Source: Actinomycetota bacterium (GTDB lineage Bacteria; Actinomycetota; Acidimicrobiia; Acidimicrobiales; Ilumatobacteraceae). From it: a stretch of DNA of 46,714 bases. A program made the position numbers and the translations under genes. Under the pieces are notes generated by a model. It was not told the origin of the DNA. It did not search any database and saw only the letters and a list, made by a program, of their open reading frames with translations. Where the stretch lies: NCBI GenBank assembly GCA_017853685.1, contig JAFMJD010000002.1, positions 1 through 46,714 on the forward strand. The letters run 5' to 3'. Shown one piece after another: positions 1 through 22,851 of this stretch. Positions within the stretch are counted from its first letter, which is position 1; each line of letters starts with the position of its first letter.

Positions 1-503
1 GTGCCCTGATAGTCCTGCTTGTCGGGACGCAGGATGAGCAACAGCACATCGCTGATGGTGATGGACAGCAGCGTCTCTTCGTTCAGACCGGGGTGGGTGT
101 CGATGATGAGCACATCGAGCTTGAGTTCCTTCACCAGCGTGCGGAAGCCCTCGTTGAGCAACTCGACGTCGTATCCCTGCCGCAGCACCTTGGCGATGTC
201 TGCCGCCTTGATGCTCGACGGCACGAGGTACAGCGCGCCGCCGGGCGCCACCGTACCGAGACGATCGGTGACCTCATGGGCAGCCTCGGTGATGCCGCAG
301 TTGCCGTAGAGGTAGTCATTCAGCATCTTGCCGTTCATCTGCTCGTCGAAGCCGAACAGCACATGGATACCGGGCGACTGCACGTCGGTGTCCACCACCG
401 CGACCCGCTTACCGGACTTGGCGAGCTGGGCAGCGATGTTCGCGCTGTTGTTGCTCTTGCCTGTGCCCCCACGGAAAGAGTGGACGGAAACGATCTTGCT
501 CAC
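1..503 (-). CDS. ParA/MinD-family P-loop ATPase (3' end outside window)
   Basis: Partial gene of 167 visible codons; the C-terminus lies beyond base 1. It starts at GTG (501-503) with a GGAGG ribosome site 7 bases upstream. The N-terminus carries a deviant Walker A, RGGTGKSNNSA (residues 11-21), then VVDTDVQSPG (Walker A', about residue 36) and LIIDTHPG (Walker B). These are hallmarks of ParA/MinD ATPases, which dimerise on ATP and position or activate partners on DNA or membrane. The usual signature lysine of KGGxGK is Arg11 here, while the P-loop Lys16 is kept. It is divergent from the gene at 607, with a palindrome between them. From its neighbours I infer a partner role in the Cache/HAMP/MFS locus rather than plasmid partition, since no ParB or parS is seen. 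The family call is firm; the role is unknown. Confidence 0.88.
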   Translation of the reverse strand, partial: MSKIVSVHSFRGGTGKSNNSANIAAQLAKSGKRVAVVDTDVQSPGIHVLFGFDEQMNGKMLNDYLYGNCGITEAAHEVTDRLGTVAPGGALYLVPSSIKAADIAKVLRQGYDVELLNEGFRTLVKELKLDVLIIDTHPGLNEETLLSITISDVLLLILRPDKQDYQG

Positions 504-544
504 GGTGCGGCCTCCGGGTGTATGCACGAAATGCGCAGGCTATG

Positions 545-560
545 AAACCTGTACTGGTTT
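545..560. promoter_or_regulatory. Palindrome between divergent promoters (operator candidate)
   Basis: AAACCTGTACTGGTTT pairs with itself at 14 of 16 positions (only the T-T pair fails). It sits between the divergent ATPase gene and the gene at 607, next to a leftward -10-like TAGCCT (complement of 537-542) and a rightward TACCAT (564-569). It is likely a binding site for a dimeric regulator. The winged-helix fusion at 1162 is a possible reader, by inference only. Confidence 0.45.
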
Positions 561-563
561 GGC

Positions 564-569
564 TACCAT
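564..569 (+). promoter_or_regulatory. -10-like box TACCAT
   Basis: TACCAT lies 37 bases before the TTG start at 607, directly after the palindrome at 545-560. No clear -35 is seen. It is the best visible -10 for the 607-2906 gene run. Confidence 0.3.
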
Positions 570-606
570 ACCGCAGGGCGCTAACGCCATGCACAAGGAG
601 GCTCGG

Positions 607-1152
607 TTGAGCGACGAACTGTTCAGCCGCGAGGAGATCCAAGGCGGAGGACTCTCGAGGGTCCGTCGTGCCCGGGCACTGCTGTACCTCATCGAGCAAG
701 AGGCGCGCCGGGTGAAGGACCGCCGGGCGGCCATGGTCACCGCTGCTCCCGAGGCCGGCCTCATGCTGAACATGCTCTGGAGCACCGATGCTGAACTGAT
801 GCGTCGGGACCTCCCCGGTGAGGCAGATGCGGCATTCATCGAGTCGTTCCGGAACGCTCGCCGCGGCACCGGTGGCGGCGAGACCAAGGCACTCGACAGC
901 ACGGCGTCGGCGTGGAAGGTGCTCTTGCCCGCTGAGATGCCGTTGCGGGCCGAGGTGCTGCGCCAGATGTCGCTGCGCCACGAGATGCCGCGCAACAAGT
1001 CCAAGCACATTGCCGAGGCATTTGGTGTGGGCGACCCCGCCTTCGAGGCCGCTTACCAGAAGGCCACCGGGCAGCCGGCAAGTTCGGCGTTCGCCCCCGA
1101 ACAGGGCCTCTTTGCCTCGCTGCGGGGCGGAAAACGCTCGTCGAAAGGCTGA
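607..1152 (+). CDS. Conserved-looking hypothetical protein of the ParA locus
   Basis: Protein of 181 residues that I do not recognise. I chose TTG at 607 because AAGGAGG (595-601) lies 5 bases upstream; an in-frame ATG at 589 would place that ribosome site inside the gene. The sequence is soluble, charged and mostly helical, with an Arg/Glu-rich stretch RRARALLYLIEQEARRVKDRR near residues 20-41 (cited in part: ARALLYLIEQEARR), a Gly-rich turn GTGGGE in the middle and a basic tail. There is no signal peptide or membrane segment. It starts a co-directional run with the acetolactate-decarboxylase-like gene 9 bases downstream and the GNAT-like gene after that, and it is divergent from the ATPase gene. 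Function is unknown; a link to the ATPase is inferred from position. Confidence 0.7.
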   Translation: MSDELFSREEIQGGGLSRVRRARALLYLIEQEARRVKDRRAAMVTAAPEAGLMLNMLWSTDAELMRRDLPGEADAAFIESFRNARRGTGGGETKALDSTASAWKVLLPAEMPLRAEVLRQMSLRHEMPRNKSKHIAEAFGVGDPAFEAAYQKATGQPASSAFAPEQGLFASLRGGKRSSKG

Positions 1153-1161
1153 CACCCCGCC

Positions 1162-2151
1162 GTGGGTATCGATGCGGGACTCGCTGCGGCGGTCACGCTG
1201 CAGCGACAGCGACTCGACGGTGCTGCTTGTGCGGCGCATGACTCGATCTTCCAGTTGACCCTCGCCAACGTGCTGCTCGACGGCGGTTACGACGGCATGG
1301 TCACCATCGGCGAGGTGATGCCCGCCGGCGATCACGGACTCGGGACAGTAGATCGACTCGACGGCGAACTCGTCGTGGTCGATGGCGTGCCCTGGCGCGT
1401 GGACTCGACGGGAGCGACCAACGTGGTGACCCCCGAGACCAAGACACCGTTCGTCGTCCTCACGAGCATGGAGTCACCGACCAGCACTCGGGTTCGCGAC
1501 GTCGACCGGGACGGCCTCACCGCCCGGATCGAGCAACTCGTCGACGACCCCAACGCGGTCGTTGCGGTACGCGTCGAAGGACGCTTCTCCCGGGTGCTCG
1601 TGCGCAGCGTTCCTGCTCAGACCCCGCCCTACCGGCCCTATGTCGAGGTGTGTGCCTCCGACGAGGTGCGTTGGGAGCACCACGACTTCGAGGGTGTCTT
1701 CGTCGGCTTCCGCTTTCCCGCACTCGACGGCGGCGCAACCATTGGCGGTCTGCACCTGCACGGACTCGACAGTGGACGTACCACCGGCGGACACAATCAC
1801 GAACTCGCCGTCTCCGATGCCGAACTGCGCGTGTCCTCCACACACGACATCGCCATTGCGCTGCCCGACCGCTCGATGATCGAGTTGCTCGAGATGCCTC
1901 CGGAGCTTCGCTCCCTCCAACGGCTCCTCCTGCGTCGCGGCGCGCTCACTGCTCAGCAGTTGGCCACCCAACTCGCCGTCGACGAGACGGAAGCATTGGC
2001 GCGACTCACATGGCTTGCCGATCGGGGGTTCGTCGAGGAACTCAGCGGCGGAGTGGCCGGACTGGGCGGCGAACCACGATGGCGCATCACATTGCGCGCG
2101 CGTGGACAGCGGATACCAACCCGCGCCGCAGCCCTGCTCGGTGATCTGTGA
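1162..2151 (+). CDS. Alpha-acetolactate-decarboxylase-like domain fused to a winged helix
   Basis: Protein of 329 residues starting at GTG. Residues about 25-245 match the acetolactate decarboxylase (BudA/AlsD) fold: YDGMVTIGEVMPAGDHGLGT, KTPF, AVRVEGRF, VRSVPAQ, VGFRFPALDGG and GLHLHGLDSGRTTGGH. The zinc histidines H198, H200 and H211 have the same spacing as in characterised enzymes, and the active-site E51 and R148 equivalents are present. The enzyme normally ends in a catalytic C-terminal glutamate segment. Here that end is replaced by about 80 residues predicted as a winged helix (LTAQQLATQLAVDETEALARL, then LADRGFVEEL). The known enzyme makes acetoin from acetolactate; this protein may instead sense a ligand and bind DNA. 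It sits between two other genes of the ParA locus and its stop overlaps the next start (GTGA). Domain assignment is firm; enzymatic activity is open. Confidence 0.85.
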   Translation: MGIDAGLAAAVTLQRQRLDGAACAAHDSIFQLTLANVLLDGGYDGMVTIGEVMPAGDHGLGTVDRLDGELVVVDGVPWRVDSTGATNVVTPETKTPFVVLTSMESPTSTRVRDVDRDGLTARIEQLVDDPNAVVAVRVEGRFSRVLVRSVPAQTPPYRPYVEVCASDEVRWEHHDFEGVFVGFRFPALDGGATIGGLHLHGLDSGRTTGGHNHELAVSDAELRVSSTHDIAIALPDRSMIELLEMPPELRSLQRLLLRRGALTAQQLATQLAVDETEALARLTWLADRGFVEELSGGVAGLGGEPRWRITLRARGQRIPTRAAALLGDL

Positions 2152-2906
2152 GCCGCCATCGCTTCGGCAGTCCGGCGCTCGAGACGCGCACCGATGAGGG
2201 CGCCGTCGTCGAGTTGTTCGACATCGTGGGGGGCGCCCCTACCGAAGTCGTGGAGACCCTCTGCTCCATCCATGTCGGCGCGTTTCCCGAGCACCTCTTC
2301 GCGGTCGACCTCATTCGCGAAGATGCCCGACTGCCCAACGTCCGAGACGGCATCATCGTGCATCAGTGGCTGCTCACCGTCGACGGCGAACCCGTCGGGT
2401 ACTCACTCGCCGACTCGAACCTGGTTCGCCGAATCGCTCCGCTGCACTTCTTCTCGGTGCTCCCCGCCTCGCGCACTCACACCGTGGATGGTGTGCGCCT
2501 CGGCACGTGGCTCATGACCGACCTCCGACGCCAGTACCTCACCGACGCAGGAGAACCCGGACTCGGCGCCGCGGCCGAGACACCCGAATACAAGTTGCGG
2601 ATCTTCGAACCGAACGGCTGGCTGCGCTGTCCAGTGAGGTATCTCGAACCCATCCACGGCTGGAACTGGCGAACCGAAGGACTCGAAGTGCGCGAGATCG
2701 CGCTCTTGTGGCTTCCCCCGACCACGGGTTCGGCCGGGGCGACGAATGAACTCGCATCGGCCGCACTGGAGCCGGCCGCAGCGTCGTTCCTCATCGACAT
2801 GTACCACTTGGACGCGTCCGTTCCGTGGCTCGCAAACCTGTGCGGAACGGAGATCGACCGTCCTGCACCGTCCCGGGAAACCGTCGCGGGCGATTCCGGC
2901 CGCTGA
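2148..2906 (+). CDS. GNAT-like acetyltransferase-type protein (tentative)
   Basis: Protein of 252 residues translated from a GTG that overlaps the previous stop (GTGA), so translation is probably coupled. The strand pattern QWLLTVDGEPVGYSLADSN (about 75-95), a basic turn and a helix VDGVRLGTWLMTDLRRQYL (about 115-133) look like the beta4/acetyl-CoA-binding region of GNAT N-acetyltransferases, but the classic Q/RxxGxG/A loop is not clean. No signal peptide or membrane segment is seen. A low-complexity Ala-rich linker (about 195-215) precedes a short C-terminal part. Its co-transcription with the acetolactate-decarboxylase-like fusion is the main functional hint. It could be another small-molecule-binding fold. 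Confidence 0.5.
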   Translation: MSRHRFGSPALETRTDEGAVVELFDIVGGAPTEVVETLCSIHVGAFPEHLFAVDLIREDARLPNVRDGIIVHQWLLTVDGEPVGYSLADSNLVRRIAPLHFFSVLPASRTHTVDGVRLGTWLMTDLRRQYLTDAGEPGLGAAAETPEYKLRIFEPNGWLRCPVRYLEPIHGWNWRTEGLEVREIALLWLPPTTGSAGATNELASAALEPAAASFLIDMYHLDASVPWLANLCGTEIDRPAPSRETVAGDSGR

Positions 2907-2938
2907 CACCGTCGGCGCGGTTCGTACGTTGTGTCAGC
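2902..2938. terminator. Bidirectional hairpin between convergent genes
   Basis: GCTGACAC (2902-2909) and GTGTCAGC (2931-2938) are perfect 8-base inverted arms around a 21-base loop. Each arm contains the stop codon of one of the two convergent genes (TGA at 2904-2906 and its complement at 2934-2936). There is no U-tract, so termination strength is uncertain. Confidence 0.4.
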
Positions 2939-4388
2939 CGAGGCGCTTGCGGCGCTTGAGGCGATACGACAACTGAGTGTCGTCCCACGTCTTTTGCACT
3001 CGGAGACCAGCGAGCACTGCACCCACTGCGAGCAACGCCGCAATGGCGGGAGCGAGCCAATGGTTACCGGCGAGACGGGTGAGTCCGATCGGGCCAGCGA
3101 CAACCATGTACGCCACGGCAACCGGCACGAGGTTGATGAGATTCGACAGCCGTGCGCGCTGCGCGTCGGGGATGGTGGCCATGGCCAACTGTCGGGCGTT
3201 GTTGTCGAGACTCACCCTCGGAAGTTTCCAGAACACCGAGGAGATGATGGCGAGCACCATCACCTCGGTTGCGCCGCCCACCACGAGCACCAGTGCACCG
3301 ACCAATGTGAACACGGGAAGCAGGAGCAACACCCGGCCGGCGCCCACACGATTGAGCAATGGTCCTGCCACACGGGCCTGCAGGATCCAACCGAGCACGA
3401 TGACCCCAAGGAACATGCCGGCGTAGATCGCTTGGAGCGACCCCGGTCGGGTGGTGTCCAGTTCGACAACGTCGAAGAAACCGAACTCGATGATGGCTCC
3501 AGCGGCCATCACACCGAACGAGCCCACCAACAACCACCGGAACGCCGGGAGATCGCGCAGCAGGCTCACGGACTCACGGAACGCTTGGCGTGAGGTCTCG
3601 TCGCGACCGTGACCCTCCGACATGGTGGAGTCACGCAGGGCCCGAGGCGTGAGCACCGCCACAGCGACACACACCACCGGGGGGACCACCAGCAGCCATG
3701 CGAGCGAGAAGTCGGTCTCGTTCGCGAGGATCGCCAACCCCGTCGATGCGGCGAGTCCCAGCACTTGACCGCCGTACAGCCAGCGAGACATCACCGGGAA
3801 CACCGTGACGGTCTGACCCGCGGTGAACACGTCGCCGGCGAGGGTCCAGATGAGCAGTGGCAGCATGAAGTTCAACTGGTCGGCGAGCAACAGCGCGAGC
3901 GCCGCAGGAATCTTGGTGGGCACGTCCGTGGCGAACAGCACCAGCACCACTGCGAAACTCACGGCGTAGATCCCGCAGAGACTCGACAGCACGTTCTTGC
4001 GCGCGAAGCGGTCGATGTAACGATTCTGGAAGATCGCAATGAGCAGCAATCCCACCCCGCCGATGGGGTACACCGCGGCAAGTGAGGTGGCGCTGCTCTT
4101 GGAGACCAACTGGGTCACGGCAACAGCGTCGGCCATCATGCCGCCGAACCCGAGGGCGCCGAGTGCGAGCGACAGCGCAAGTGTCCATCGCTTCCGGGCT
4201 GCCGCTCGATCCACCGGATCCTCGCCCCGGGGCCGGGCGCCTGCGGACTCGATCAGTGCATCGAGTGCGTCACCTGCGTTCTTGGTGGAGTTTGCAGCCT
4301 GAATCATGTCGTCGAGCGCGTCGCTCGCCGCACGCCGCGGCTTACGAGCCCCGAGCAGATCGTCGAGCGCATCGTTCCCGTCAGTCAT
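2934..4388 (-). CDS. MFS-type multi-pass carrier with N-terminal peptide repeats
   Basis: Protein of 484 residues. I chose ATG at 4386-4388, which overlaps the stop of the upstream HAMP gene by 8 bases; a longer reading from 4427 would run deeper into that gene. After a 65-residue soluble N-terminus come about 12 hydrophobic segments, with signatures such as WTLAGDVFTAGQTVTVFPVM and a central charged loop, fitting an MFS or nucleotide-translocase-like carrier. The N-terminus contains DALDDLL (6-12), DALDDMI (23-29) and DALDALI (40-46), exactly 17 residues apart, which looks like repeated docking peptides. It is co-transcribed with the Cache/HAMP protein, whose reading frame ends inside its start. 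The substrate is unknown. Confidence 0.75.
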   Translation of the reverse strand: MTDGNDALDDLLGARKPRRAASDALDDMIQAANSTKNAGDALDALIESAGARPRGEDPVDRAAARKRWTLALSLALGALGFGGMMADAVAVTQLVSKSSATSLAAVYPIGGVGLLLIAIFQNRYIDRFARKNVLSSLCGIYAVSFAVVLVLFATDVPTKIPAALALLLADQLNFMLPLLIWTLAGDVFTAGQTVTVFPVMSRWLYGGQVLGLAASTGLAILANETDFSLAWLLVVPPVVCVAVAVLTPRALRDSTMSEGHGRDETSRQAFRESVSLLRDLPAFRWLLVGSFGVMAAGAIIEFGFFDVVELDTTRPGSLQAIYAGMFLGVIVLGWILQARVAGPLLNRVGAGRVLLLLPVFTLVGALVLVVGGATEVMVLAIISSVFWKLPRVSLDNNARQLAMATIPDAQRARLSNLINLVPVAVAYMVVAGPIGLTRLAGNHWLAPAIAALLAVGAVLAGLRVQKTWDDTQLSYRLKRRKRLG

Positions 4389-5553
4389 CGCCCGCCACCG
4401 CCTCGGACTTGTTGGCGCGTTCGGCACTGGCTTCGATGATCTCGAGGCCCTTCACCTTCGCCCGCATCGCGCCGGCCTTCTTGGTGAGATCGTTGAAGAA
4501 GTCGCTGTCCACGATCTCGCTGACGGCATCCTTCCGCTTCGCCTCGTCGATCTCCACGCGCATGACCTGAACCGCCTGGGTCAGGGTTCGCTCACGGTCT
4601 CCGACCTTCTGGGTCATCACGAGGAACGAATTCGCCAACTCGGTCATCTCGTCGGCGAACACCGCCGAAGCGCTGGAACTGATGTCCACGTCGTAGTTGC
4701 CATCGGCAACCTTGCGGGTCACCGAGTTGAGCCGGGCGATTCGCTTGGCGAACTGACCCGAGAGCACGAAGAGCAGTCCGAGCAGGAGTACGTAGGCCAC
4801 CGCGAAGACCGGATAGAGCGAGCGCTGCACATCGCTGCGCACCTTGTCGACGTAGGCCACGTCGTAATCCACACCGATGGCCCCCACCACGTTGCCCGCC
4901 CTGTCCTTGATGGGCGCATACACCGAGATCCAGCGACTGAGTGCGTCGGTGTATGCAGGCTGGAACGTCGTCTCGGCAAAGCCCAACTTGAAGTAGCCGA
5001 GTGTGGTCTGGTCGATGATCTCGGTGACGTCCTGCTGGAAACGGAACCCTGCCGGTTCGTCCACCCCGATATTGGGATACCCGAGTGAGGCCCACGAGCC
5101 AACGGCGCGCACCACGCCATCGGGTGCGAGGTAGAAGGTGTAGGGCGAGGCCTCGGGATTGGTCCGACGCACGTTCGCCAACTCCTGGTTGTGTCGCCAA
5201 TAGGCCTCCGAGGCCGGGTAGACGCTCTGAGCGGTGACCTTGGTGCCAGCGAGTTTGCCGGCGATGGCCGGATAGGTCTCCCCGGGGACGATGGCGAGAT
5301 CAGCCTGACTCAATGCAACAAAGGCATCGAGGTCGAGGCTCTCCGCAGCGCCGGTGCAGAGATCACGGAGCGTGGACTTGAGACGCGAGTTCGCCGAATT
5401 CGTGGAGAAGCTCAGGATCCAGATTGCAAGCACCACGAAGAACACCGTGAACACGAGGCCGAAGGCCAACAGCAGTTTCCATCTCATGCCGAGGCGGCGG
5501 GTGCGCCGCTTGGCTACAGCACTGACGGGCGCATCGAGATTTACAGCAGTCAC
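4381..5553 (-). CDS. Cache-type sensor with HAMP domain and short C-terminal module
   Basis: Protein of 390 residues. It has transmembrane helix 1 at about 25-47, an extracytoplasmic ligand-binding region of about 195 residues resembling Cache/PAS sensors (WISVYAPIKDRAGNVVGAIGVDYD), transmembrane helix 2 near 245-265, a HAMP linker (RIARLNSVTRKVADGNYDVDI), a coiled coil, and a tail VEIDEAKRKDAVSEIVDSDF at 333-352. There is no kinase, cyclase or methyl-accepting domain, so signal output must be through partners. The same tail ends the divergent HAMP protein at 5635. I chose GTG at 5551-5553 because a -10-like TACAGT ends 7 bases before it; ATGs at 5592 and 5625 are alternatives without ribosome sites. 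It probably controls or accompanies the downstream MFS carrier. Confidence 0.8.
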   Translation of the reverse strand: MTAVNLDAPVSAVAKRRTRRLGMRWKLLLAFGLVFTVFFVVLAIWILSFSTNSANSRLKSTLRDLCTGAAESLDLDAFVALSQADLAIVPGETYPAIAGKLAGTKVTAQSVYPASEAYWRHNQELANVRRTNPEASPYTFYLAPDGVVRAVGSWASLGYPNIGVDEPAGFRFQQDVTEIIDQTTLGYFKLGFAETTFQPAYTDALSRWISVYAPIKDRAGNVVGAIGVDYDVAYVDKVRSDVQRSLYPVFAVAYVLLLGLLFVLSGQFAKRIARLNSVTRKVADGNYDVDISSSASAVFADEMTELANSFLVMTQKVGDRERTLTQAVQVMRVEIDEAKRKDAVSEIVDSDFFNDLTKKAGAMRAKVKGLEIIEASAERANKSEAVAGDD

Positions 5554-5560
5554 GGGCGAG

Positions 5561-5566
5561 ACTGTA
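5561..5566 (-). promoter_or_regulatory. -10 box TACAGT, leaderless-type
   Basis: On the minus strand TACAGT is followed by CTCGCCC and then GTG at 5553. The same TAC-N-GT-CTCGCCC arrangement precedes the start at 14693. It supports the chosen start. Confidence 0.5.
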
Positions 5567-5613
5567 CTCAGAACGCGTCCCGCGCTGTTCATGCTGCGCG
5601 ACCCAGTCCTTGT

Positions 5614-5619
5614 TACGCT
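5614..5619 (+). promoter_or_regulatory. -10-like box TACGCT
   Basis: TACGCT lies 15 bases before the GTG start at 5635, with a GGGGGA ribosome-type stretch between. A four-codon ATG-TGG-GGG-ATG-TGA frame (5624-5638) overlaps the gene start. Whether it is on the mRNA is unclear. Confidence 0.3.
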
Positions 5620-5634
5620 CGCCATGTGGGGGAT

Positions 5635-6882
5635 GTGAGCGTGCGCCGTCTCCTCGACCCGCGCAGGTGGAGCCTCGGCGCCAAGATCGGTGTCACCCTC
5701 GTGGTGGCAGCACTGGTGCCCATGGCACTGCTCTCGGTTGCCGCCACGCGTTCGGGTCAGGACGCCGTGGAACAGTCGGAATTGTCGGCAGCCGAGGGGC
5801 GCGCCGTGGTGGGGGCATCATCGGTCCAGCAATACCTCCTCGGGGTCGTGGGCCGCGCCAACCAACTGGGCACTACCTCTGACGTGGTGGCGTTCTTGAA
5901 GAATTCGGGCTCCACCAGCATCCCCGCTATCGGCGCAACTGCATCGCAGTTCGACGTCGAGGCGGTGATCCTCGCCGATCTCCGAGGTGCAACGCGAGCT
6001 GCGGTGCCATCGTCCTACGAGGGTCGCAACGTCGCCGGCGAGGACTGGTTCGTGGATGCTGCAGCGGGTCAGACCGCCGTGGGCCGCATCGCCTTCGATC
6101 CCAGAACGAACCGGTCGTCGGTGATCGTTGCCGCACCGGCACGTGATCCCAGTGCTGCAGTGGTCGGAGTTGCGGCCCTGCAAGTAAGCGGACAAGACGT
6201 GCTCTTCGCGCTCAACCAGGCACCACTCGGCCCCGGCGGACAAGCCGTGCTCGTGGATCCCGACGGACGCATCGTGCTGACGCGGGACTCGCGCCTGCTC
6301 GGCAAGCAGCTCAGCGATCTCGGTCTTCAGGACCTCGCAGATTCGATCGCCGACGAGCCGTCGGGAACACGATCGAAAGTCCCGCTGCCCGGACGCGGCG
6401 TGCAGGTGGTGGCCTGGTCGGCCACCACCGGGGGCAACATCGCCGTGGTGTTCCAGCCCCGAGCAGCGTTCCTCGCCCCGATCGATCGACTCGCACGCAC
6501 CACGCGTATCGCGCTCGCCATCGTGGCGGCAGTGGCGCTGCTGCTTGCGCTGTTCGTGGCGCGTCGTCTCTCCAAGCCCGTCTCGGCGCTCACTAATGCG
6601 GCGAGTGCACTCGAGGCGAACACCGAGCTCGACATCGACCGGCTCGAGAACATCGCACGCTCACGCGATGACATCGGTCGCCTTGCCCGGGTGTTCTCCA
6701 GCATGGCAGCCGAAGTCGCCGAGCGCGAGCGCCGGCTGCGCGCACAGGTGGAGGCACTCAAGGTGGAGATCGACGAAGATCGCCGACGGCTCACCGTGAC
6801 CGAACTGACCGACACAGAGTTCTTCAGGAATCTCATCGAGCGGGCGGCCGAGATCCGCCGACGCGCACGGGGCGAGAGTTGA
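5635..6882 (+). CDS. Double-Cache-like sensor with HAMP domain and short C-terminal module
   Basis: Protein of 415 residues starting at GTG 5635. It has transmembrane helix 1 at about 15-35, a large extracytoplasmic region (about 36-285) with double-Cache features (AVILADLRGATRAAVPSSYEG, GEDWFVDAA, GQAVLVDPDGRIVLTRD), transmembrane helix 2 at about 290-312, HAMP (RRLSKPVSALTNAASALE...DDIGRLARVF), a coiled coil, and the tail VEIDEDRRRLTVTELTDTEF at 377-396, aligned without gaps to the tail of the HAMP protein at 4381. It has no output enzyme domain. Its stop overlaps the start of the substrate-binding lipoprotein gene (TGATG), so the pair is translationally coupled and may form a ligand-relay sensor. 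It is divergent from the other HAMP gene. Confidence 0.82.
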   Translation: MSVRRLLDPRRWSLGAKIGVTLVVAALVPMALLSVAATRSGQDAVEQSELSAAEGRAVVGASSVQQYLLGVVGRANQLGTTSDVVAFLKNSGSTSIPAIGATASQFDVEAVILADLRGATRAAVPSSYEGRNVAGEDWFVDAAAGQTAVGRIAFDPRTNRSSVIVAAPARDPSAAVVGVAALQVSGQDVLFALNQAPLGPGGQAVLVDPDGRIVLTRDSRLLGKQLSDLGLQDLADSIADEPSGTRSKVPLPGRGVQVVAWSATTGGNIAVVFQPRAAFLAPIDRLARTTRIALAIVAAVALLLALFVARRLSKPVSALTNAASALEANTELDIDRLENIARSRDDIGRLARVFSSMAAEVAERERRLRAQVEALKVEIDEDRRRLTVTELTDTEFFRNLIERAAEIRRRARGES

Positions 6883-8048
6883 TGTCGACACGACGAAGCG
6901 TCGCGATGACCTGCGCAGGGGCACTGGCCGCTGCCTCGTTTGCGATGGGGTGCTCATCCGATGACACCTCCAGCGGATGCACCCAACGCGCCATCGCCTT
7001 CGTCGGTCCGCTCACCGGCCAGTACCGACGACCCCCCATGCAGAACGGTGCCGAACTGGCGGTTGCGCAGTACAACAAGGAACATCCCGACTGTCCGATC
7101 GGTTATCTGCCCTACGACTCGCAGGGCGATCCGGATCTCGCCGCGCGGCTCGCAGAGCAGATCGTCGACGACCCACAGATCCTCGCCGTGCTCGGTCCGA
7201 GTTATTCCGGCGAGACCGCTGCAGTCATGCCCGTGTTCGAACAGGTTTCGCTCGCCAACGTCACCGCATCCGCAACAAACCCCACGCTCTCGCAACAAGG
7301 ATGGACCACGTTCCATCGGGCGGTCGGCACCGACGACGCCCAGGGCCCTGCCGCTGCCGCCTTCCTGAGCGACGAGCTCAAGGTGCGCCGTGTCGCTGTT
7401 ATCGATGACAGCGGTCTGTACGGCAAGACACTCGCCGATCTCGTTGCTGCTGATCTCGGCAAGCGCGGTGTGGTGATCGCACCCCGGGCGTCGCTGGATC
7501 CCAAAGTGCTCGACTACACCTCTACCGTTGGTTCACTCGCCGAGATCGGCGTGGATGCCGTCTACTACGGAGGTGTGACCGAACCGGGCGTCCGGCTGCT
7601 CAAACAAATGCGCGACGCCGGGATCACCGTGCCGTTCATGGGCGGCGACGGCATCTTCGACCCCTCGCTCATCTCGGGCGTGGGTGAGGGTGCCCAGGGC
7701 GCGTTCATCACCTGCCCGTGCGTGGACCCGACCGATGAGTCCTCGCCCGATCGCAAGGCCTTCGCAGCCGCCTACCGCGCATACTTCGGTTACGAACCTG
7801 TCGGGTTCGTCATGGAGTACTTCGATGTGGCGAGACTCGTGATTGCCGCACTCGAAGACGGCGCAGGCACCCGCGCCGAGGTGGACCGTTGGCTCGACAC
7901 CGCTCGATTCGTCGGCATGACCAAAGCGATCGAGTTCGACGACTCGGGCGACATCACTGCAGGGCCGATCTTCGTGCTCCGAGTCGAGGGCGACCGCTTC
8001 GCGCAGTTCGCGACGATCCTCGACGGACGCGTGCAGAAGAATCAGTGA
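6882..8048 (+). CDS. ABC-type branched-chain amino acid/amide substrate-binding lipoprotein
   Basis: Protein of 388 residues from ATG 6882, overlapping the previous stop by one base. An N-terminal lipoprotein signal (twin-Arg-like basic start, lipobox ...FAMGC with Cys24) is followed by a periplasmic-binding fold of the LivJ/Peripla_BP_6 type: IAFVGPLTG, NGAELAVAQYN, VLGPSYSGETAAVMPVF and VAVIDDSGLYGKTLADLV. In ABC uptake systems such proteins hand amino acids or amides to permeases. No ABC permease or ATPase is nearby, and the gene is fused translationally to a Cache/HAMP sensor gene. A receptor role in signalling is therefore more likely than transport, by inference. It ends 7 bases from a convergent TetR gene. 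Confidence 0.85.
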   Translation: MSTRRSVAMTCAGALAAASFAMGCSSDDTSSGCTQRAIAFVGPLTGQYRRPPMQNGAELAVAQYNKEHPDCPIGYLPYDSQGDPDLAARLAEQIVDDPQILAVLGPSYSGETAAVMPVFEQVSLANVTASATNPTLSQQGWTTFHRAVGTDDAQGPAAAAFLSDELKVRRVAVIDDSGLYGKTLADLVAADLGKRGVVIAPRASLDPKVLDYTSTVGSLAEIGVDAVYYGGVTEPGVRLLKQMRDAGITVPFMGGDGIFDPSLISGVGEGAQGAFITCPCVDPTDESSPDRKAFAAAYRAYFGYEPVGFVMEYFDVARLVIAALEDGAGTRAEVDRWLDTARFVGMTKAIEFDDSGDITAGPIFVLRVEGDRFAQFATILDGRVQKNQ

Positions 8049-11016: not shown

Positions 11017-12236
11017 CAACTCGCGACCGGATCGACCTCGTCGGATCCCGTGCGCTCCAGTTGATCGATCTCGACGAACGCCGCCTCGATCATGGGCGCA
11101 AGCCCGTATCGCCAGTCGATGCCGTGAAACACCCTCGACGTCTCGGGCAGCACGAATGCACCGGTAGCCAGAATGCCGATGAACGCAAGAAGCGAGCGCA
11201 GGCTCTCTCGAGCGGATGCACTCTGCATCTCCTCATCGGCCAGCACTGCGTCGACGATCGACTGCTCTCGCTCCATGATGCCGAGCGCAAGACTCCGGTT
11301 GCTGATGCCGGCGAGGAAGAACTCGACACGTCGGCGACGCACCCATCTGCTCGCCGGGTCCAGGTAGTGGTGGGCGGCACGGGCAATGCCCATCGGGCCC
11401 AGTTCCATCAGCGCGCGGCGCGATTCGAACGATCGTCCCCACGAGCTTCGCGCGGCAGCAGCAACTACGAGTTCATCACGCGAGTCGAAGTGCGAATACA
11501 GCGCGGAACGCGGTAGCCCGGCGCGTCGAGCGATCCGCGTGATCGTGGTACCGCTCACGCCTGCACGCGCAACCACATCGGCGGTTGCCGAGAGCAAGAC
11601 ATCGAGTTCGTCCTCGTTCGACACATGATCAGCGATCGGCAGGAGATTCGACGGCAGTGCGTCGGCAAAGTGGGGTGACACCTTGCGCGCCGACTCCCAC
11701 CATCCGAGGCAGTGCACCCAGTCAGGCAGGAGCGCATCGTCAATGCCGCCGGTGAGCATCGCACCGAAGTACGCCGCTATCGCCACCGCACGGGACGACC
11801 GCCGATGCATCGCCATCTGAGGCCCCAGTCCGAGATCGTGGAACCATTGGTCCACCTCGGGCAGCACCACTTCGGCGAGCACTTCGTTGCGAGGTGACAT
11901 GGCAATCACATACGCGCCAAGACGTTCGGCTACAGGGTCGTAGGACTCGGGAATCTCGAGGCGCTCGGCCTCGGCCGACCCCTCCGCCATGCTGATGGAA
12001 CGCTCGAGGCCGGCCCGCACCACATGGCGGAAACGCTGCAGCCACGCTTCGATCAACATCTCGTCGGTGTTCTCGAAGCGTCCGTACACCGCACCTGTAC
12101 TCAGACCGGCCTCGTCGGCGACGCGCCGGGCGGTCGCACCGTCCACACCGTGGCGATCCAGAACGGCCACCACCGCATCGAGTACCCGTGCGTCGTTCTT
12201 CGCTACGCCGCGACTGCGCGAGGCCGACTTACCCAT
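11016..12236 (-). CDS. Tandem TetR-type regulator (two TetR units in one chain)
   Basis: Protein of 406 residues, twice the usual TetR length (about 200). The first helix-turn-helix is at about 19-64 (GATARRVADEAGLSTGAVYG); the second is at about 208-255 (GTTITRIARRAGLPRSALYS). Each is followed by a helical ligand-binding half. One chain could thus mimic a TetR dimer and bind one operator as a pseudo-dimer. I chose ATG 12234-12236 (MGKSASRSRG), with GAGG 10 bases upstream; a GTG at 12254 is possible. It is followed by the GNAT gene in ATGA overlap. It is downstream of, and in line with, the Rieske and TrpB genes, but 45 bases separate them. A second tandem TetR lies at 32959. Confidence 0.87.
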   Translation of the reverse strand: MGKSASRSRGVAKNDARVLDAVVAVLDRHGVDGATARRVADEAGLSTGAVYGRFENTDEMLIEAWLQRFRHVVRAGLERSISMAEGSAEAERLEIPESYDPVAERLGAYVIAMSPRNEVLAEVVLPEVDQWFHDLGLGPQMAMHRRSSRAVAIAAYFGAMLTGGIDDALLPDWVHCLGWWESARKVSPHFADALPSNLLPIADHVSNEDELDVLLSATADVVARAGVSGTTITRIARRAGLPRSALYSHFDSRDELVVAAAARSSWGRSFESRRALMELGPMGIARAAHHYLDPASRWVRRRRVEFFLAGISNRSLALGIMEREQSIVDAVLADEEMQSASARESLRSLLAFIGILATGAFVLPETSRVFHGIDWRYGLAPMIEAAFVEIDQLERTGSDEVDPVAS

Positions 12237-12281
12237 CGGTGACAATCCTCGCACACCGACGCGTGCCCGCCAGCGCAGGGC

Positions 12282-13280
12282 TCAACAGGTGCCGTAGCGG
12301 GCCCCCCGGTCGGCGAGCCAACGGCGGTAGGCGAGGCTCAACCGGTCCGCTCGCTGGTGCACCTCGGCGGCCGGGTCCAACGGCAGTCGCTGAGGACGTT
12401 GCGATTCCACGATCGGGGTGTCCTGGGCGAAGATCACCTCGTTGAAGGCTCGGTAGCCCTCGAGGTCACCCGCAGGGTCCCGGATGGTGGTGAGCATCCA
12501 CACTCGGCACGACGTCTCGGTCACCGGACTGGTCACGATCATCATCGAAAAGCCGTGCAGTTCTCCCCCGTTGGCCTCGGACGGCACTTTGGTGAGCACG
12601 GCACACGCCGGATGCGTCACCGAATACACATACGCCACGTCGCCGCCCTCGGTTGCAGTCGGACCCGGGCGCGGCTGCCACGCAACCACGTTCGTGGCCT
12701 CCAGGCCCGATGCGTCGACAGTGACCTCGTAGTCACGCACCTCGGTGTGCGGCCACTCACCCAGGTAGGTGTCGTGCACGAACGGGAAGTGCGCCACATC
12801 CAAGAAGTTCTCGACGGCACGAGGGCCACTGGTGGACAGCGTTTGGGGTCCGAACGCCACGGTGAGGCCGGGATGACGCTCGAATGCGTCGTACACCGGG
12901 AGGTTGCGCGGCTCGGAGCCCACGCACACCCACCAAAGACCGAATGCGGCCCGCACGGCCACCGTGTGAAGCGCACATGCCGCAGGCACAGCCACATCAG
13001 GGTGTGCCGGGCGATGCACGCACGTGCCAGAGGTGTCGAACTGCCAACCGTGGTACGGGCACTGCAGCCGGGCACCATCGAATGTGCCCAGCGAGAGTTG
13101 TGCCCCGCGGTGCGGACACGTGTCGGCTGCGGCAATGACGGTGCCGTCGGCACCAGCCACCAAGACATAGCGCTCGCCCAGCAACTCGAACGGGTACAAG
13201 GTGGCGGGCCGCACATCCGCCACCGACGCCACCGCGAACCATTCGTTGCGAATTTGGTCACTGCGACTTTGGTCACCCAT
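12282..13280 (-). CDS. Rieske non-haem iron oxygenase, alpha-subunit type
   Basis: Protein of 332 residues. The N-terminal Rieske [2Fe-2S] domain has C55-x-H57 (CPHRGA) and C74-x2-H77 (CPYHGW). The catalytic domain has N158, D161, H164 and H169 in ENFLDVAHFPFVHDTYLG, the mononuclear iron site with bridging Asp. Length and motifs fit vanillate O-demethylase or phenoxybenzoate-dioxygenase-type oxygenases, which hydroxylate or O-demethylate aromatic or related substrates using electrons from a separate reductase. No reductase or ferredoxin gene is adjacent. It lies 42 bases after the TrpB-like gene on the same strand. Codons 2-11 contain a 15-base tandem repeat. Confidence 0.88.
   Translation of the reverse strand: MGDQSRSDQIRNEWFAVASVADVRPATLYPFELLGERYVLVAGADGTVIAAADTCPHRGAQLSLGTFDGARLQCPYHGWQFDTSGTCVHRPAHPDVAVPAACALHTVAVRAAFGLWWVCVGSEPRNLPVYDAFERHPGLTVAFGPQTLSTSGPRAVENFLDVAHFPFVHDTYLGEWPHTEVRDYEVTVDASGLEATNVVAWQPRPGPTATEGGDVAYVYSVTHPACAVLTKVPSEANGGELHGFSMMIVTSPVTETSCRVWMLTTIRDPAGDLEGYRAFNEVIFAQDTPIVESQRPQRLPLDPAAEVHQRADRLSLAYRRWLADRGARYGTC
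13247..13276. repeat. 15-base tandem repeat at the start of the Rieske gene
   Basis: TGCGAATTTGGTCAC (13247-13261) is followed directly by TGCGACTTTGGTCAC (13262-13276), with one mismatch, ending one base before the start codon. It encodes the duplicated peptide pattern S/G-D-Q-x-R in the protein. It may be a slippage product or a paired binding site. Confidence 0.6.
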
Positions 13281-13322
13281 TGCACAGACCTACCGGTGAG
13301 CACGCCATCGTCGACGTGGCCC

Positions 13323-14693
13323 TCAGCCCGCCACCACCGGCACCTGAGCCATCGCTGCAGCCACGGCCTCGTCGCTCAGATCGAAATCCACCATCTCGCC
13401 CGACAGGAACTTCTCGTATGCGGCGAGATCCAGATGGCCATGCCCGCAGAGTGCGGTGAGGATCACCTTCTCCTCGCCGGTCTGCTTGCACCGCAACGCC
13501 TCACGCACCGCGGCAGCAATCGCATGGGTGGGCTCCGGCGCCGGCACGATGCCCTCGGTGCGGGCGAACTGCAGTGCTGCGGTGAAGCACTCCACCTGTC
13601 CGATGGCCTCCGCCTCGGCGAGACCGAGCTCATAGATGTGACTCACGAGCGGTGACATGCCGTGATAGCGCAGGCCACCGGCATGAATCGGATCAGGGAT
13701 GAACGAGTGGCCGAGGGTATGCATCTTCATCAGCGGCGTCATTCCTGCGGTGTCGCCGAAGTCGTAGCGGTACTCGCCCTTGGTGAGACTCGGACAGGCC
13801 GCCGGCTCCACGCAGCGGATGGTGGGATTCATCTTTCCTGCGAGCTTCTCCCGCAGGAACGGGAACGCAAGACCGCCGAAATTCGAACCGCCGCCCGTGC
13901 ACCCCACCAAGAGGTCCGGCTTCTCGCCGACCTTCGCCAACTGCAGCAGAGCCTCCTCGCCGATGATGGTCTGGTGCATCAACACGTGGTTGAGCACGCT
14001 GCCCAGCGCGTACCTCGTCTTGGGGTCGGCCACTGCCATCGCCACCGCTTCGGAGATCGCAATACCCAGGCTTCCGGGATGATCCGGATCCTGCGCCAAC
14101 AACGAGCGTCCGTATTCGGTGACGTTCGACGGGCTCGGGTGCACGGTCGCCCCCCAGAGCTGCATCATGGTCTTGCGATACGGCTTGGTGCGGTACGAAG
14201 CCGCCACCTGCCAGACCTCGCACTCCATCCCGTACTGCGCAGTGGCGAACGCCAACGAAGTGCCCCACTGTCCGGCGCCCGTCTCGGTCGTGAGTTTCGT
14301 GATGCCTTCTTGGTGGTTGTAGTAGGCCTGCGGCACTGCCGTGTTGGGCTTGTGCGAACCCGCCGGGCTGACACCCTCGTACTTGTAATAGATGCGCGCG
14401 GGCGTGCCGAGGAGTTGCTCGAGGCGATGCGCGCGAAACAGCGGGCTCGGTCGCCAGACGCGGTAGATGTCGAGCACGCCGCCGGGGATGTCCACGTAGC
14501 GCTGCGACGTGACCTCCTGCTCGATGAGGGCCATCGGGAACAACGGCGCGAAATCGTCAGGGCCAGCGGGCTGCAGCGTGCCGGGGTGCAACGGGGGCGG
14601 CGGCGGTGCCGGCAGGTCCGGGATGACGTTGTACCACTGCGTGGGCATCTCGTCTTCGGTGAGCAGGATCTTGTGCGGGGTCTTCGCTGCCAT
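13323..14693 (-). CDS. Tryptophan synthase beta-like PLP enzyme, TrpB2 type
   Basis: Protein of 456 residues, longer than canonical TrpB (about 400) as in the stand-alone TrpB2 group, with a proline-rich N-terminus (PAPPPPPLHPG). PLP Lys115 lies in AGSHKPNTA, the catalytic Glu in TETGAGQWG (E137), and the phosphate loop is GGGSN (267-271). The family condenses indole with serine to tryptophan; TrpB2 often lacks a TrpA partner, and none is here. It starts at ATG 14691-14693, 7 bases after a TACGGT box, and faces the F420-type enzyme across a 108-base gap with a 10-base dyad. With the Rieske gene after it, an indole- or aromatic-linked role is possible, by inference. Confidence 0.9.
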   Translation of the reverse strand: MAAKTPHKILLTEDEMPTQWYNVIPDLPAPPPPPLHPGTLQPAGPDDFAPLFPMALIEQEVTSQRYVDIPGGVLDIYRVWRPSPLFRAHRLEQLLGTPARIYYKYEGVSPAGSHKPNTAVPQAYYNHQEGITKLTTETGAGQWGTSLAFATAQYGMECEVWQVAASYRTKPYRKTMMQLWGATVHPSPSNVTEYGRSLLAQDPDHPGSLGIAISEAVAMAVADPKTRYALGSVLNHVLMHQTIIGEEALLQLAKVGEKPDLLVGCTGGGSNFGGLAFPFLREKLAGKMNPTIRCVEPAACPSLTKGEYRYDFGDTAGMTPLMKMHTLGHSFIPDPIHAGGLRYHGMSPLVSHIYELGLAEAEAIGQVECFTAALQFARTEGIVPAPEPTHAIAAAVREALRCKQTGEEKVILTALCGHGHLDLAAYEKFLSGEMVDFDLSDEAVAAAMAQVPVVAG

Positions 14694-21643: not shown

Positions 21644-22851
21644 CGTCTGCGTCCACCGCATCGCCCGGCGACGGGCACCGACTGCTCATCATCGACGACG
21701 ACCCGATGGTGGCCGAGTTGCTGGCCGACATTGCGATGCTCCACAACTTCTCGGTGGACATGGCGCACACGAACGCCGACATCGAACGACTCGCCGGCTC
21801 CGGGCATGACCTCGTGGTGCTGGATCTCACACTGGGCGATACCGACGGACTGCAGGTGATGCGCCTCATGCGGACGCGGCAACCCGGTGTTGCGCTCATC
21901 TTGCTGACGGGCGCAGACCGCACCGTGATCAGCTCGGCTCAGCGCGTGGCCGAACTCAGCGGCTTTCGCGTCATCGGGGCCTGGTCGAAGCCGGTCGACA
22001 TCGATGCACTCGGCGCACTGTTCGAGGCGTCGAAGCAGGCGGTCGTAAAAGACGACACCGGGGCGATCCGCCGTCTCAGTGATGTGGCGCTCAGCGCCGT
22101 TCGAGATGGTCAGGTCCATCTGCTGTATCAGCCCAAGGTGGATCTCACGACACGACGGGTGACCGGTGCTGAGGCACTCGTGCGCCTCAGCGTTCCCGGG
22201 TTCGAGCATGTGTCACCCGGCGCGTGGGTTCCCTTCGTGGAGGCCGCCGGTCGCAGTCGAGAACTGCTCGATGCGGTGCTGCGATGCGCAGCGCGAGATC
22301 GACGTGAACACGCTGCACTGGCTGCGCTGGCCGAGGTGTCGATCAACCTCTCGGTGCTGGACCTCGACGACCTCGAACTGCCCGATCACATCCGCTCGGT
22401 GCTGGGCGACGCCGTGGCACCAGACCGCTGGACCCTCGAGGTGACCGAGTCCGCCGAGACCGGACGGCTCGCCGAGGCACTCGATGTGCTGACTCGCTTC
22501 CGGCTGCTCGGTTTCCGGCTCGCGATGGACGACTTCGGCACGGGCACCTCCACCTTCGAGCGGCTTCGGATCTACCCGTTCAACGAACTCAAGATCAACC
22601 GGCTGTTCGTGCACACCGACCGGCGTGGGATCGCCCACACCCGCGCCATGTTGCGTACCGCTGTGGACCTCGGCGAGGCGCTCGAGCTCAAAGTGGTGGT
22701 CGAGGGCGTGGAGTCGAGCCCGGAACTCGCCTTGGTGGACGAAGTCGGGTGCGATGCGATCCAGGGCTATCTCGTGAGCCGACCGGTACCGCCGGAGCAA
22801 TTCGGCGAGGTCTCGGACCAATGGGACCGCCGACAGGCTCTGCCTGCCTGA
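21640..22851 (+). CDS. Response regulator with EAL c-di-GMP phosphodiesterase output
   Basis: Protein of 403 residues. The receiver domain (about 13-128) has IIDDDPMVAE, acceptor Asp62 in LVVLDLTLGDTDG, and a Lys in WSKPVD. The EAL domain (about 148-395) has GAEALVRL (Glu178), SINLSVLD (metal Asn), TLEVTESAE, DDFGTGTSTFERL (loop 6), ELKINR (the active-site Lys; the usual IKID is IN here), VVVEGVE and IQGYLVSRP. All main catalytic residues are present, so c-di-GMP hydrolysis to pGpG is expected, controlled by phosphorylation. Translation is coupled to the upstream hybrid kinase. No GGDEF cyclase is in the window. Confidence 0.93.
   Translation: MTSASTASPGDGHRLLIIDDDPMVAELLADIAMLHNFSVDMAHTNADIERLAGSGHDLVVLDLTLGDTDGLQVMRLMRTRQPGVALILLTGADRTVISSAQRVAELSGFRVIGAWSKPVDIDALGALFEASKQAVVKDDTGAIRRLSDVALSAVRDGQVHLLYQPKVDLTTRRVTGAEALVRLSVPGFEHVSPGAWVPFVEAAGRSRELLDAVLRCAARDRREHAALAALAEVSINLSVLDLDDLELPDHIRSVLGDAVAPDRWTLEVTESAETGRLAEALDVLTRFRLLGFRLAMDDFGTGTSTFERLRIYPFNELKINRLFVHTDRRGIAHTRAMLRTAVDLGEALELKVVVEGVESSPELALVDEVGCDAIQGYLVSRPVPPEQFGEVSDQWDRRQALPA

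Follow-up and report, generated by a model that had tools for sequence, protein, structure and literature searches.

A MinD/ParA-like ATPase carrying the motif HSFRGGTGKSN, HAMP sensors that share a conserved C-terminal tail, carrier-like membrane proteins, an all-helical protein (P607) and a GNAT-fold protein recur together in distant bacterial phyla. The gene families, the tail common to the sensors, a specific linkage that holds across phyla and the natural fusions between P607, permease-like and winged-helix domains are all established here, and they support the idea, first put forward from sequence alone, that these genes belong to one system. That they form a modular signalling system, in which a signal would pass from sensor to HAMP, tail, ATPase and carrier, is as likely to be wrong as right, in the absence of contact or activity data.

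The locus, its ATPase and its tailed sensors

The window is a 46,714-nucleotide stretch of a contig from an actinomycetotal bacterium (Ilumatobacteraceae). All the genes named in the original prediction were found where it had placed them (ORF list, Pfam scan), and the gene set held as listed, with two genes overlooked: a GNAT-fold gene and, past the contig edge, a HATPase/GNAT-like gene (Table 1). The three predicted couplings were also confirmed: a GTGA start/stop coupling between the acetolactate-decarboxylase fusion and the GNAT-fold gene (2148-2151), a TGATG coupling between the dCache-HAMP-tail gene and the lipoprotein gene (6880-6884), and an 8-base overlap between the MFS gene and the adjacent Cache/HAMP gene (4381-4388). 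The predicted ATPase was present with its motif, truncated by the contig end; contig C150 (locus L004) has an exact 55-base overlap with the start of the window and supplies the missing C-terminal part (L004 13584-13894). No Rfam RNAs or tRNAs were found in the window, and PADLOC gave only weak generic ATPase matches, with no known defence model met.

Table 1. Features of the locus (positions are those of the window unless a locus is named)
Feature	Position	Strand	Remarks
MinD/ParA-like ATPase	503..<1 in window, rest on C150	-	GTG start at 503; 252 aa whole
P607, all-helical, fold unknown	607-1152	+	AlphaFold2 model; fusions of homologues
Acetolactate-decarboxylase domain (residues 29-237) with C-terminal winged helix (about residues 245-329)	1162-2151	+	PF03306, E 7e-54
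GNAT-fold protein GNAT252	2148-2906	+	AlphaFold2 model, pLDDT 77
MFS-type carrier-like membrane protein	2934-4388	-	PF07690, E 3e-10
Cache-type extracytoplasmic region, HAMP and tail (sCache)	4381-5625; tail 4447-4653	-	HAMP match; tail profile E 3e-28
dCache-HAMP protein with the same tail	5641-6882; tail 6667-6876	+	PF02743, PF00672; tail profile E 9e-28
Peripla_BP_6 ligand-binding lipoprotein	6882-8048	+	PF13458, E 2e-40; TGATG coupling
HATPase/GNAT-like gene	L004 12072-13562, past the window's contig edge		next to ATPase

The ATPase matches AAA_31/ParA in Pfam, and its closest solved structure is archaeal MinD-1 (1hyq; profile search, E 2.8e-18). It resembles the MinD/ParA SIMIBI ATPases in its fold family, in a full-length profile alignment and in a deviant Walker A region, but has FRGGTGKSN where they have GKGGTGKTT, the signature lysine of MinD-type ATPases being replaced by arginine, and its linkage is with sensors and carriers, not with MinC/MinE, ParB or division genes. 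The motif HSFRGGTGKSN was present in 101 of 119 copies and HSYRGGTGKSN in two, the remainder being degraded neighbouring copies; a second conserved motif, DTHPGLNEE, is invariant. It fails to qualify for the cell-division MinD family, given the lysine replacement and a score of only 36 bits with NCBIfam minD_bact (cut-off 213), and for the partition ParA family, scoring 50.5 bits with ParA_partition (cut-off 180); no ParB was noted at the loci read. The subfamily has more than 557 relatives, mainly in Chloroflexota but also in Actinomycetota, and is present in 22 of 146 sampled cyanobacteria. Its presence in cyanobacteria is inferred from this sample and not from the "Pleurocapsa" (L083) or "Bacteroidetes" (L133) bin, either of which could be contaminated. 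The ATPase tree has deep branches that group by phylum, and the linkage described below is therefore not the product of one recent transfer.

Both Cache/HAMP proteins of the window terminate in a conserved tail of about 70 residues. The claim that they lack any output enzyme held, no output domain having been matched by Pfam in either. Neither protein qualifies for a two-component system (Pfam finds HisKA, HATPase and receiver domains in neither) or for a chemotaxis system (MCPsignal is absent by Pfam, and reading the ORF lists of related loci brought none to light). Like histidine kinases, chemoreceptors and SiaA/RsbU-type phosphatases, these proteins have an extracytoplasmic Cache region, membrane helices and HAMP, but HAMP is followed here by the short tail, without a kinase, cyclase, phosphatase, GGDEF or MCP domain. 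The tail, which matched only chance coiled coils in the PDB, is also C-terminal in response-regulator (RR)-HAMP, GAF, PAS and CHASE2 proteins, and receiver or kinase proteins lead into it at four loci (L053, L057, L062 and L091). The input thus varies, from Cache, GAF, PAS or CHASE2 to RR-HAMP after hybrid kinases, and the tail is constant, as would be expected if the tail were an output module with one partner. ParA-like ATPases are known to cooperate with receptors in PpfA/TlpT and ParC/ParP, where they position chemoreceptor arrays. Work with receptors is common to the system described here, but its block lacks CheA, CheW and any MCP signalling domain, and has the conserved tail and carriers instead.

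Linkage across genomes and phyla

Among 20 genomes selected for carrying the ATPase, which made up the main reverse test, 19 had the tail, in one to four copies each, and 22 of their 37 tail genes lay no more than 10 kb from the ATPase, where 0.31 would be expected. GNAT252 adjoined the ATPase or a tail gene in all 11 cases and the MFS family did so in all 16. An evenly drawn sample of 151 genomes from the phylum of Herpetosiphon contained 13 with GNAT252, and every one of them had the order MFS-GNAT-tail, at loci of which eight had not previously been collected. In cyanobacteria, a tail gene was found within 10 kb at 13 of 20 ATPase loci, one arrangement being dCache-HAMP-tail, P607-permease and ATPase. 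Loci without any partner, some of them on short contigs, accounted for 11 of 72 mostly chloroflexotal loci and five of the 20 cyanobacterial ones. The carrier is missing at some ATPase loci, and may therefore be one target among several.

The neighbourhood check proposed with the original prediction, using the ATPase, the protein at 607-1152 and the HAMP tails, thus returned the expected co-occurrence in distant phyla, including Chloroflexota and cyanobacteria. One result that would have refuted the prediction, namely no co-occurrence beyond close relatives, is contradicted by this recurrence.

Partner and accessory genes

The lipoprotein had been described as a receptor without ABC partners, and this is supported: no permease or ATPase of an ABC uptake system was noted beside it (ORFs, 1-12 kb), and in its nine closest in-class homologues, its own copy included, the gene always comes immediately after a dCache-HAMP-tail gene (9/9). 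It is likely to be the partner of this receptor, which it probably loads, physical contact between the two being inferred.

The docking-like repeats ascribed to the carrier were confirmed, the N-terminus of the MFS protein having three (DALDDLL, DALDDMI and DALDALI); its cytosolic C-terminus is conserved (RLKRRKRLG in the alignment). The family profile matches the ADP/ATP carrier 9j3n (E 3.2e-7), making it a distant relative of the NTT carriers, and the window protein itself matches Pfam MFS_1, but the conserved cytosolic docking-like termini and the linkage to sensors and the ATPase set it apart from NTT and MFS carriers. An LDxLEF-like motif was found in 57% of MFS C-termini, versus 0.4%, and a hydrophobic-Wxx-hydrophobic motif in 89% of winged-helix (wHTH) extensions, versus 7% in shuffles; shared ancestry among the wHTH genes accounts for part of this enrichment. 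P607 has no Pfam or NCBIfam match, and its model (pLDDT 73) has no fold match in the PDB. Its homologues are the N-terminal domains of amino-acid-permease-like proteins adjoining the ATPase in Thermoleophilia, Chloroflexota and cyanobacteria, and a natural P607-permease-wHTH fusion was found.

The gene predicted to join a metabolic domain to a DNA-binding module was confirmed, with its roles corrected. The HxH...H, DGE and arginine of the fusion align with those of the solved decarboxylases 6inb and 4bt2, and membership of the acetolactate decarboxylases is met by the metal-binding histidine triad, glutamate and arginine, enzymatic activity being inferred. These catalytic residues are shared with BudA/AlsD, from which the fusion differs in scoring below the NCBIfam equivalog cut-off (167.1 bits against 180.65), in its winged helix and in the lack of a butanediol operon. 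A plasmid search with the fusion gave only ordinary BudA-type matches, none covering 80% of the query. Only in three genomes, all from a single family, was the domain found together with the ATPase; it is therefore accessory and lineage-specific. The winged helix is the recurring part: its profile also matches stand-alone wHTH genes beside the ATPase, which it adjoins at 43 of 72 mostly chloroflexotal loci, and elsewhere it stands alone or is joined to membrane proteins, as in a natural ABC exporter-cNMP-wHTH fusion. It is therefore as likely to be an adaptor as a DNA-binding regulator; its similarity to TrmB and HTH_20 is weak (Pfam).

The GNAT252 model matches GCN5/PCAF/Pat folds (152 PDB matches at E<=0.001), and Foldseek confirms the GNAT acetyltransferase fold (E about 2e-6 to GCN5/PCAF), acetyl-CoA binding being inferred. 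In the genomes searched, GNAT252 always adjoins MFS/tail genes or the ATPase and occurs at most once per genome, except in one with two loci (G001). The HATPase/GNAT-like gene adjoins the ATPase in three genomes, is lineage-specific and was absent from a profile search of chloroflexotal and cyanobacterial loci. It was rejected as a core component, its spread in Actinomycetota being independent of the ATPase.

Proposed mechanism, rival explanations and significance

In the proposed mechanism, the MinD/ParA-like ATPase would be the receiver of a modular signalling system. Sensors without catalytic output (sCache- and dCache-HAMP here, with the lipoprotein probably loading the dCache-HAMP protein) would relay their signal through HAMP into the coiled-coil-like tail, which would dock on the ATPase and alter either the nucleotide state of the ATPase or its binding to the membrane. 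In turn, the ATPase would act on a carrier-like membrane protein, of the MFS type at this locus and permease- or NTT-like at others, and may be tethered to it by winged-helix domains, P607 and short hydrophobic-WxxLD or ALDxLL motifs, and the GNAT protein would probably modify one of the parts. All physical contacts, the order of events, the outcome (carrier gating or positioning), the biochemistry and the biological role are inferred, as are the roles of receptor, relay, ATPase and regulator assigned in the original prediction; only the gene linkage is shown.

The ATPase could instead serve positioning only, like MinD, ParA, PpfA and TadZ, placing or clustering receptors and carrier, with the tailed proteins as cargo adaptors and signalling secondary. 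This remains possible: MinD is its nearest solved relative, carrier and sensors have adaptor-like motifs and tails in common, and receptor arrays are commonly positioned by ParA-type ATPases. However, the many input domains found on the tail (response-regulator, PAS, GAF) suggest information flow rather than mere placement of cargo, and the signature lysine is lost. A transcription switch, in which winged-helix proteins would bind DNA under the control of the ATPase or the decarboxylase domain upon sensor input, would account for the frequent position of the winged helix beside the ATPase and for its weak similarity to TrmB and HTH_20. It seems unlikely, because fusions to permease-like membrane proteins and an ABC exporter, and terminal peptide motifs similar to the carrier's, are better explained by an adaptor.

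There is still less to be said for an RsbW-type partner switch based on the HATPase/GNAT-like gene. In three genomes this gene does adjoin the ATPase, and its distant relatives lie beside a Cache-HAMP-SpoIIE phosphatase in another (L043), but it has no significant Pfam HATPase match of its own, it was not recovered by profile in Chloroflexota or cyanobacterial loci, and RsbU/W/V membership was not met, no SpoIIE or STAS match being found by Pfam in the window proteins scanned. Some parts are missing at some loci, as chance neighbourhood of unrelated genes would predict, but the specific linkage in the reverse searches and the evenly drawn sample is so far above chance that this explanation can be virtually discarded.

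A bolder version of the signalling reading, towards which we are slightly more sceptical than favourable, is that of a separate kind of transmembrane signalling, in which output-less HAMP sensors would act through the common tail on a MinD-like ATPase driving or gating carrier-like membrane proteins, with interchangeable Cache, GAF, PAS, CHASE2 and response-regulator inputs, and which would be ancient in Chloroflexota, Cyanobacteriota and Actinomycetota. In the literature searched, the signal-passing route is apparently undescribed, and the original claim that no system with this set had been described met with no contrary report. The tail goes unmentioned in the eLife conflict-system surveys examined, one of which does mention MinD/ParA-like effector domains but predicts that they are inactive, and in the relevant sections of the S-helix paper.

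The output enzyme is the usual basis for classifying bacterial sensors. Sensors with the 70-residue tail as their sole output, beside a MinD-like ATPase, are apparently present in hundreds of genomes. If the signalling reading is true, a MinD-type ATPase would have a signalling role. If the tail is indeed the output, the role of output-less HAMP proteins would become open to direct tests, with a motif for which any genome can be searched, and a partner would be gained by many of the "sensor proteins without output" known from cyanobacteria and Chloroflexota.

Genes of the window and its completed ATPase

Positions 1–8048 had been proposed as an undescribed sensor/ATPase locus. All the genes named in the original prediction were confirmed in place (Table), as were the coupled starts (GTGA at 2148–2151, TGATG at 6880–6884 and an 8-base overlap at 4381–4388); its gene list was incomplete, having overlooked a GNAT-fold protein, GNAT252, the structure model of which (pLDDT 77) matched GCN5, PCAF and Pat structures. 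The genome consists of 234 contigs, the window being contig C133, and its ATPase is truncated by the contig end. The last 55 bases of contig C150 are identical to the first 55 of the window, and the ATPase read across this junction has 252 residues, starting at GTG 503. The sole Pfam match of the HATPase/GNAT-like gene behind it is a weak GNAT; in distant relatives, both a HATPase_c and a GNAT domain are clear.

Table. Coordinates of the genes of the window and of other loci
Feature	Stretch	Position	Strand or place	Length
ATPase (truncated)	window	1–503	−	
P607 (all-helical)	window	607–1152	+	
Decarboxylase-winged helix	window	1162–2151	+	
GNAT252	window	2148–2906	+	
MFS carrier	window	2934–4388	−	
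Cache1	window	4381–5625	−	
Cache2 (dCache)	window	5641–6882	+	
Lipoprotein	window	6882–8048	+	
HATPase/GNAT-like gene	L004 (C150)	12072–13562	same strand as ATPase, behind it	496 aa
Large membrane protein, response-regulator-like gene	window	18692–22851		983 aa (membrane protein)
ABC exporter fusion	L016	6961–9879		
Neighbours of the L017 homologue	L017	1999–7783		
Decarboxylase-winged-helix homologue	L017	9856–10836		
HATPase-GNAT fusions and neighbours	L043	4311–9346		
NTT-like carrier	L061	10870–14709		
Degraded second ATPase	L121	10755–11543		

The nearest solved relative of the ATPase is archaeal MinD, from which it differs in having an arginine at the signature-lysine position; the P-loop lysine is kept. 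The motif HSFRGGTGKSN was invariant in the main copies compared. In Chloroflexota, a second, degraded copy often adjoins the main one, a hint of a heterodimer in which one subunit is inactive. Such a copy (e.g. HSFRPGTGKSQ) follows the main ATPase at locus L121, with similar copies at many Chloroflexota loci.

Recurrence and linkage of the families

The HATPase/GNAT-like gene, ATPase, P607, decarboxylase-winged helix, GNAT252, MFS and Cache1 recur together in G001 and G012, relatives at the genus and family level, in an order and on strands differing from those of the window, the G001 block being split over two contigs. The ATPase, winged-helix gene, GNAT252, MFS and Cache1-tail are also grouped in G076 (same class, different family), with Cache2-tail and the lipoprotein about 8 kb away. 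Recurrence in distant phyla had been predicted. An alignment search detected at least 557 ATPase relatives in GTDB genomes; the best 79 loci are mostly from Chloroflexota, with others from Thermoleophilia, Pseudonocardia, Desulfobacteraceae and a Leptolyngbya bin. These best loci were scanned with profiles made from the families of the window and their first relatives. At least one partner was found at 61 of 72 ATPase loci (mostly Chloroflexota): the tail at 42, the winged helix at 43 and the MFS at 18. Herpetosiphon aurantiacus DSM 785 carries, on one strand and in this order, the ATPase, a degraded second ATPase, MFS, GNAT252, Cache-HAMP-tail, a hydrolase and the winged helix. The ATPase is present in 22 of 146 sampled genomes from the phylum of the Leptolyngbya bin, with a tail gene within 10 kb at 13 of the 20 loci read there; the order at L195 and L196 is dCache-HAMP-tail, P607-permease, ATPase.

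In a reverse test on 20 genomes selected as ATPase carriers, tail matches numbered one to four per genome (zero in one), and 22 of 37 lay within 10 kb of the ATPase, against 0.31 expected; GNAT252 and the MFS family adjoined an ATPase or tail gene in 11/11 and 16/16 cases, respectively. To offset this pre-selection, GNAT252 alone was used as the query against 151 genomes drawn evenly from Herpetosiphon's phylum, and the order MFS-GNAT252-tail was found in all 13 positive genomes. Ten of these lay outside the first set; two of them, from the length and content of their contigs, repeat loci already covered, leaving eight new, and five of the ten had an ATPase within 10 kb. The ATPase tree has deep branches that group by phylum, so a single recent transfer does not account for the linkage.

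In a class-level search of 247 genomes, each of the nine best lipoprotein homologues (E below 1e-70, own copy counted) lay directly 3' of a dCache-HAMP-tail gene, so the binding protein truly belongs to the set; weaker homologues in this search did not directly follow such a gene. From this linkage, the lipoprotein is probably, on the simplest view, the partner that loads ligand onto the dCache receptor.

Sensor tail, carriers and accessory parts

Both Cache/HAMP proteins end in the tail (RE..L..QV..L.IEID..+R...V.EI..(T/S)(D/E)(F/Y)F..L...A...R), which is common to the C-termini of Cache-HAMP, receiver-HAMP, GAF, PAS and CHASE2 proteins. At L057 and L091, a receiver-HAMP-tail gene lies near a hybrid histidine kinase gene, and both loci also encode the ATPase and a P607-permease protein. 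An unchanging tail behind varied inputs resembles an output module.

The MFS family matches NTT ADP/ATP carriers, and its cytosolic C-terminus is conserved in alignment. Fusions of P607 with amino-acid-permease-like proteins occur in Actinomycetota, Chloroflexota and cyanobacteria; at two loci, a winged helix is part of the same chain. WxxLD-type motifs end 89% of stand-alone winged-helix proteins, versus 7% in shuffles. Chloroflexota MFS proteins have C-terminal LDxLEF-like peptides, whereas the window MFS has three N-terminal DALDDLL-type repeats instead. The likeness of these motifs might reflect one shared docking surface, perhaps on the ATPase, although this is only inferred. Directly downstream of the ATPase at L061 is an NTT-like carrier that contains HEAT-like repeats; its long tail has repeated PADLLGA(I/L)-type motifs resembling those in the N-terminus of the window MFS. 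In G012, a winged helix also forms part of an ABC exporter that carries a cNMP-binding domain. At L016, such a fusion ends in GVLDTLFGD, adjoins the decarboxylase-winged-helix gene and hints that other transporters could use the same adaptor.

The catalytic residues of the decarboxylase domain are conserved, but this domain was found together with the ATPase in three genomes only (G000, G001 and G012). These are also the only ones in which the HATPase/GNAT-like gene adjoins the ATPase; in G076 the two are about 266 kb apart. At L017 in G006, what is apparently a RiPP export cluster combines two ABC exporters and a probable leader peptide gene of the Nif11/NHLP type with an adjacent decarboxylase-winged-helix homologue; this stretch has no ATPase. 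Two HATPase-GNAT fusion genes at L043 adjoin genes for an ABC-type binding protein and a Cache-HAMP-SpoIIE phosphatase, an arrangement resembling a partner switch in which the kinase carries GNAT domains. Elsewhere in the window, a large membrane protein gene is followed by an overlapping response-regulator-like gene; no result ties either to the tail system.

A putative relay and its chief rival

The set matches no curated family in Pfam, NCBIfam or PADLOC, and is undescribed in the open-access literature searched (subscription papers lay outside the search, so novelty is claimed with this qualification). Each part belongs to a known superfamily; neither their combination nor the use of a sensor tail as the only output has a match in these databases or that literature.

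The gene linkages among the sensor/tail, ATPase and carrier families are shown. The chief rival reading, that the ATPase serves only for positioning, is given clearly lower confidence than the relay and is held to be rather unlikely. The best-supported reading, in which we have roughly equal confidence and doubt, is a relay with inferred contacts, nucleotide effects and outcome: the signal would pass from the sensor through the HAMP domain and tail to the ATPase, which would then act upon a carrier-like membrane protein.
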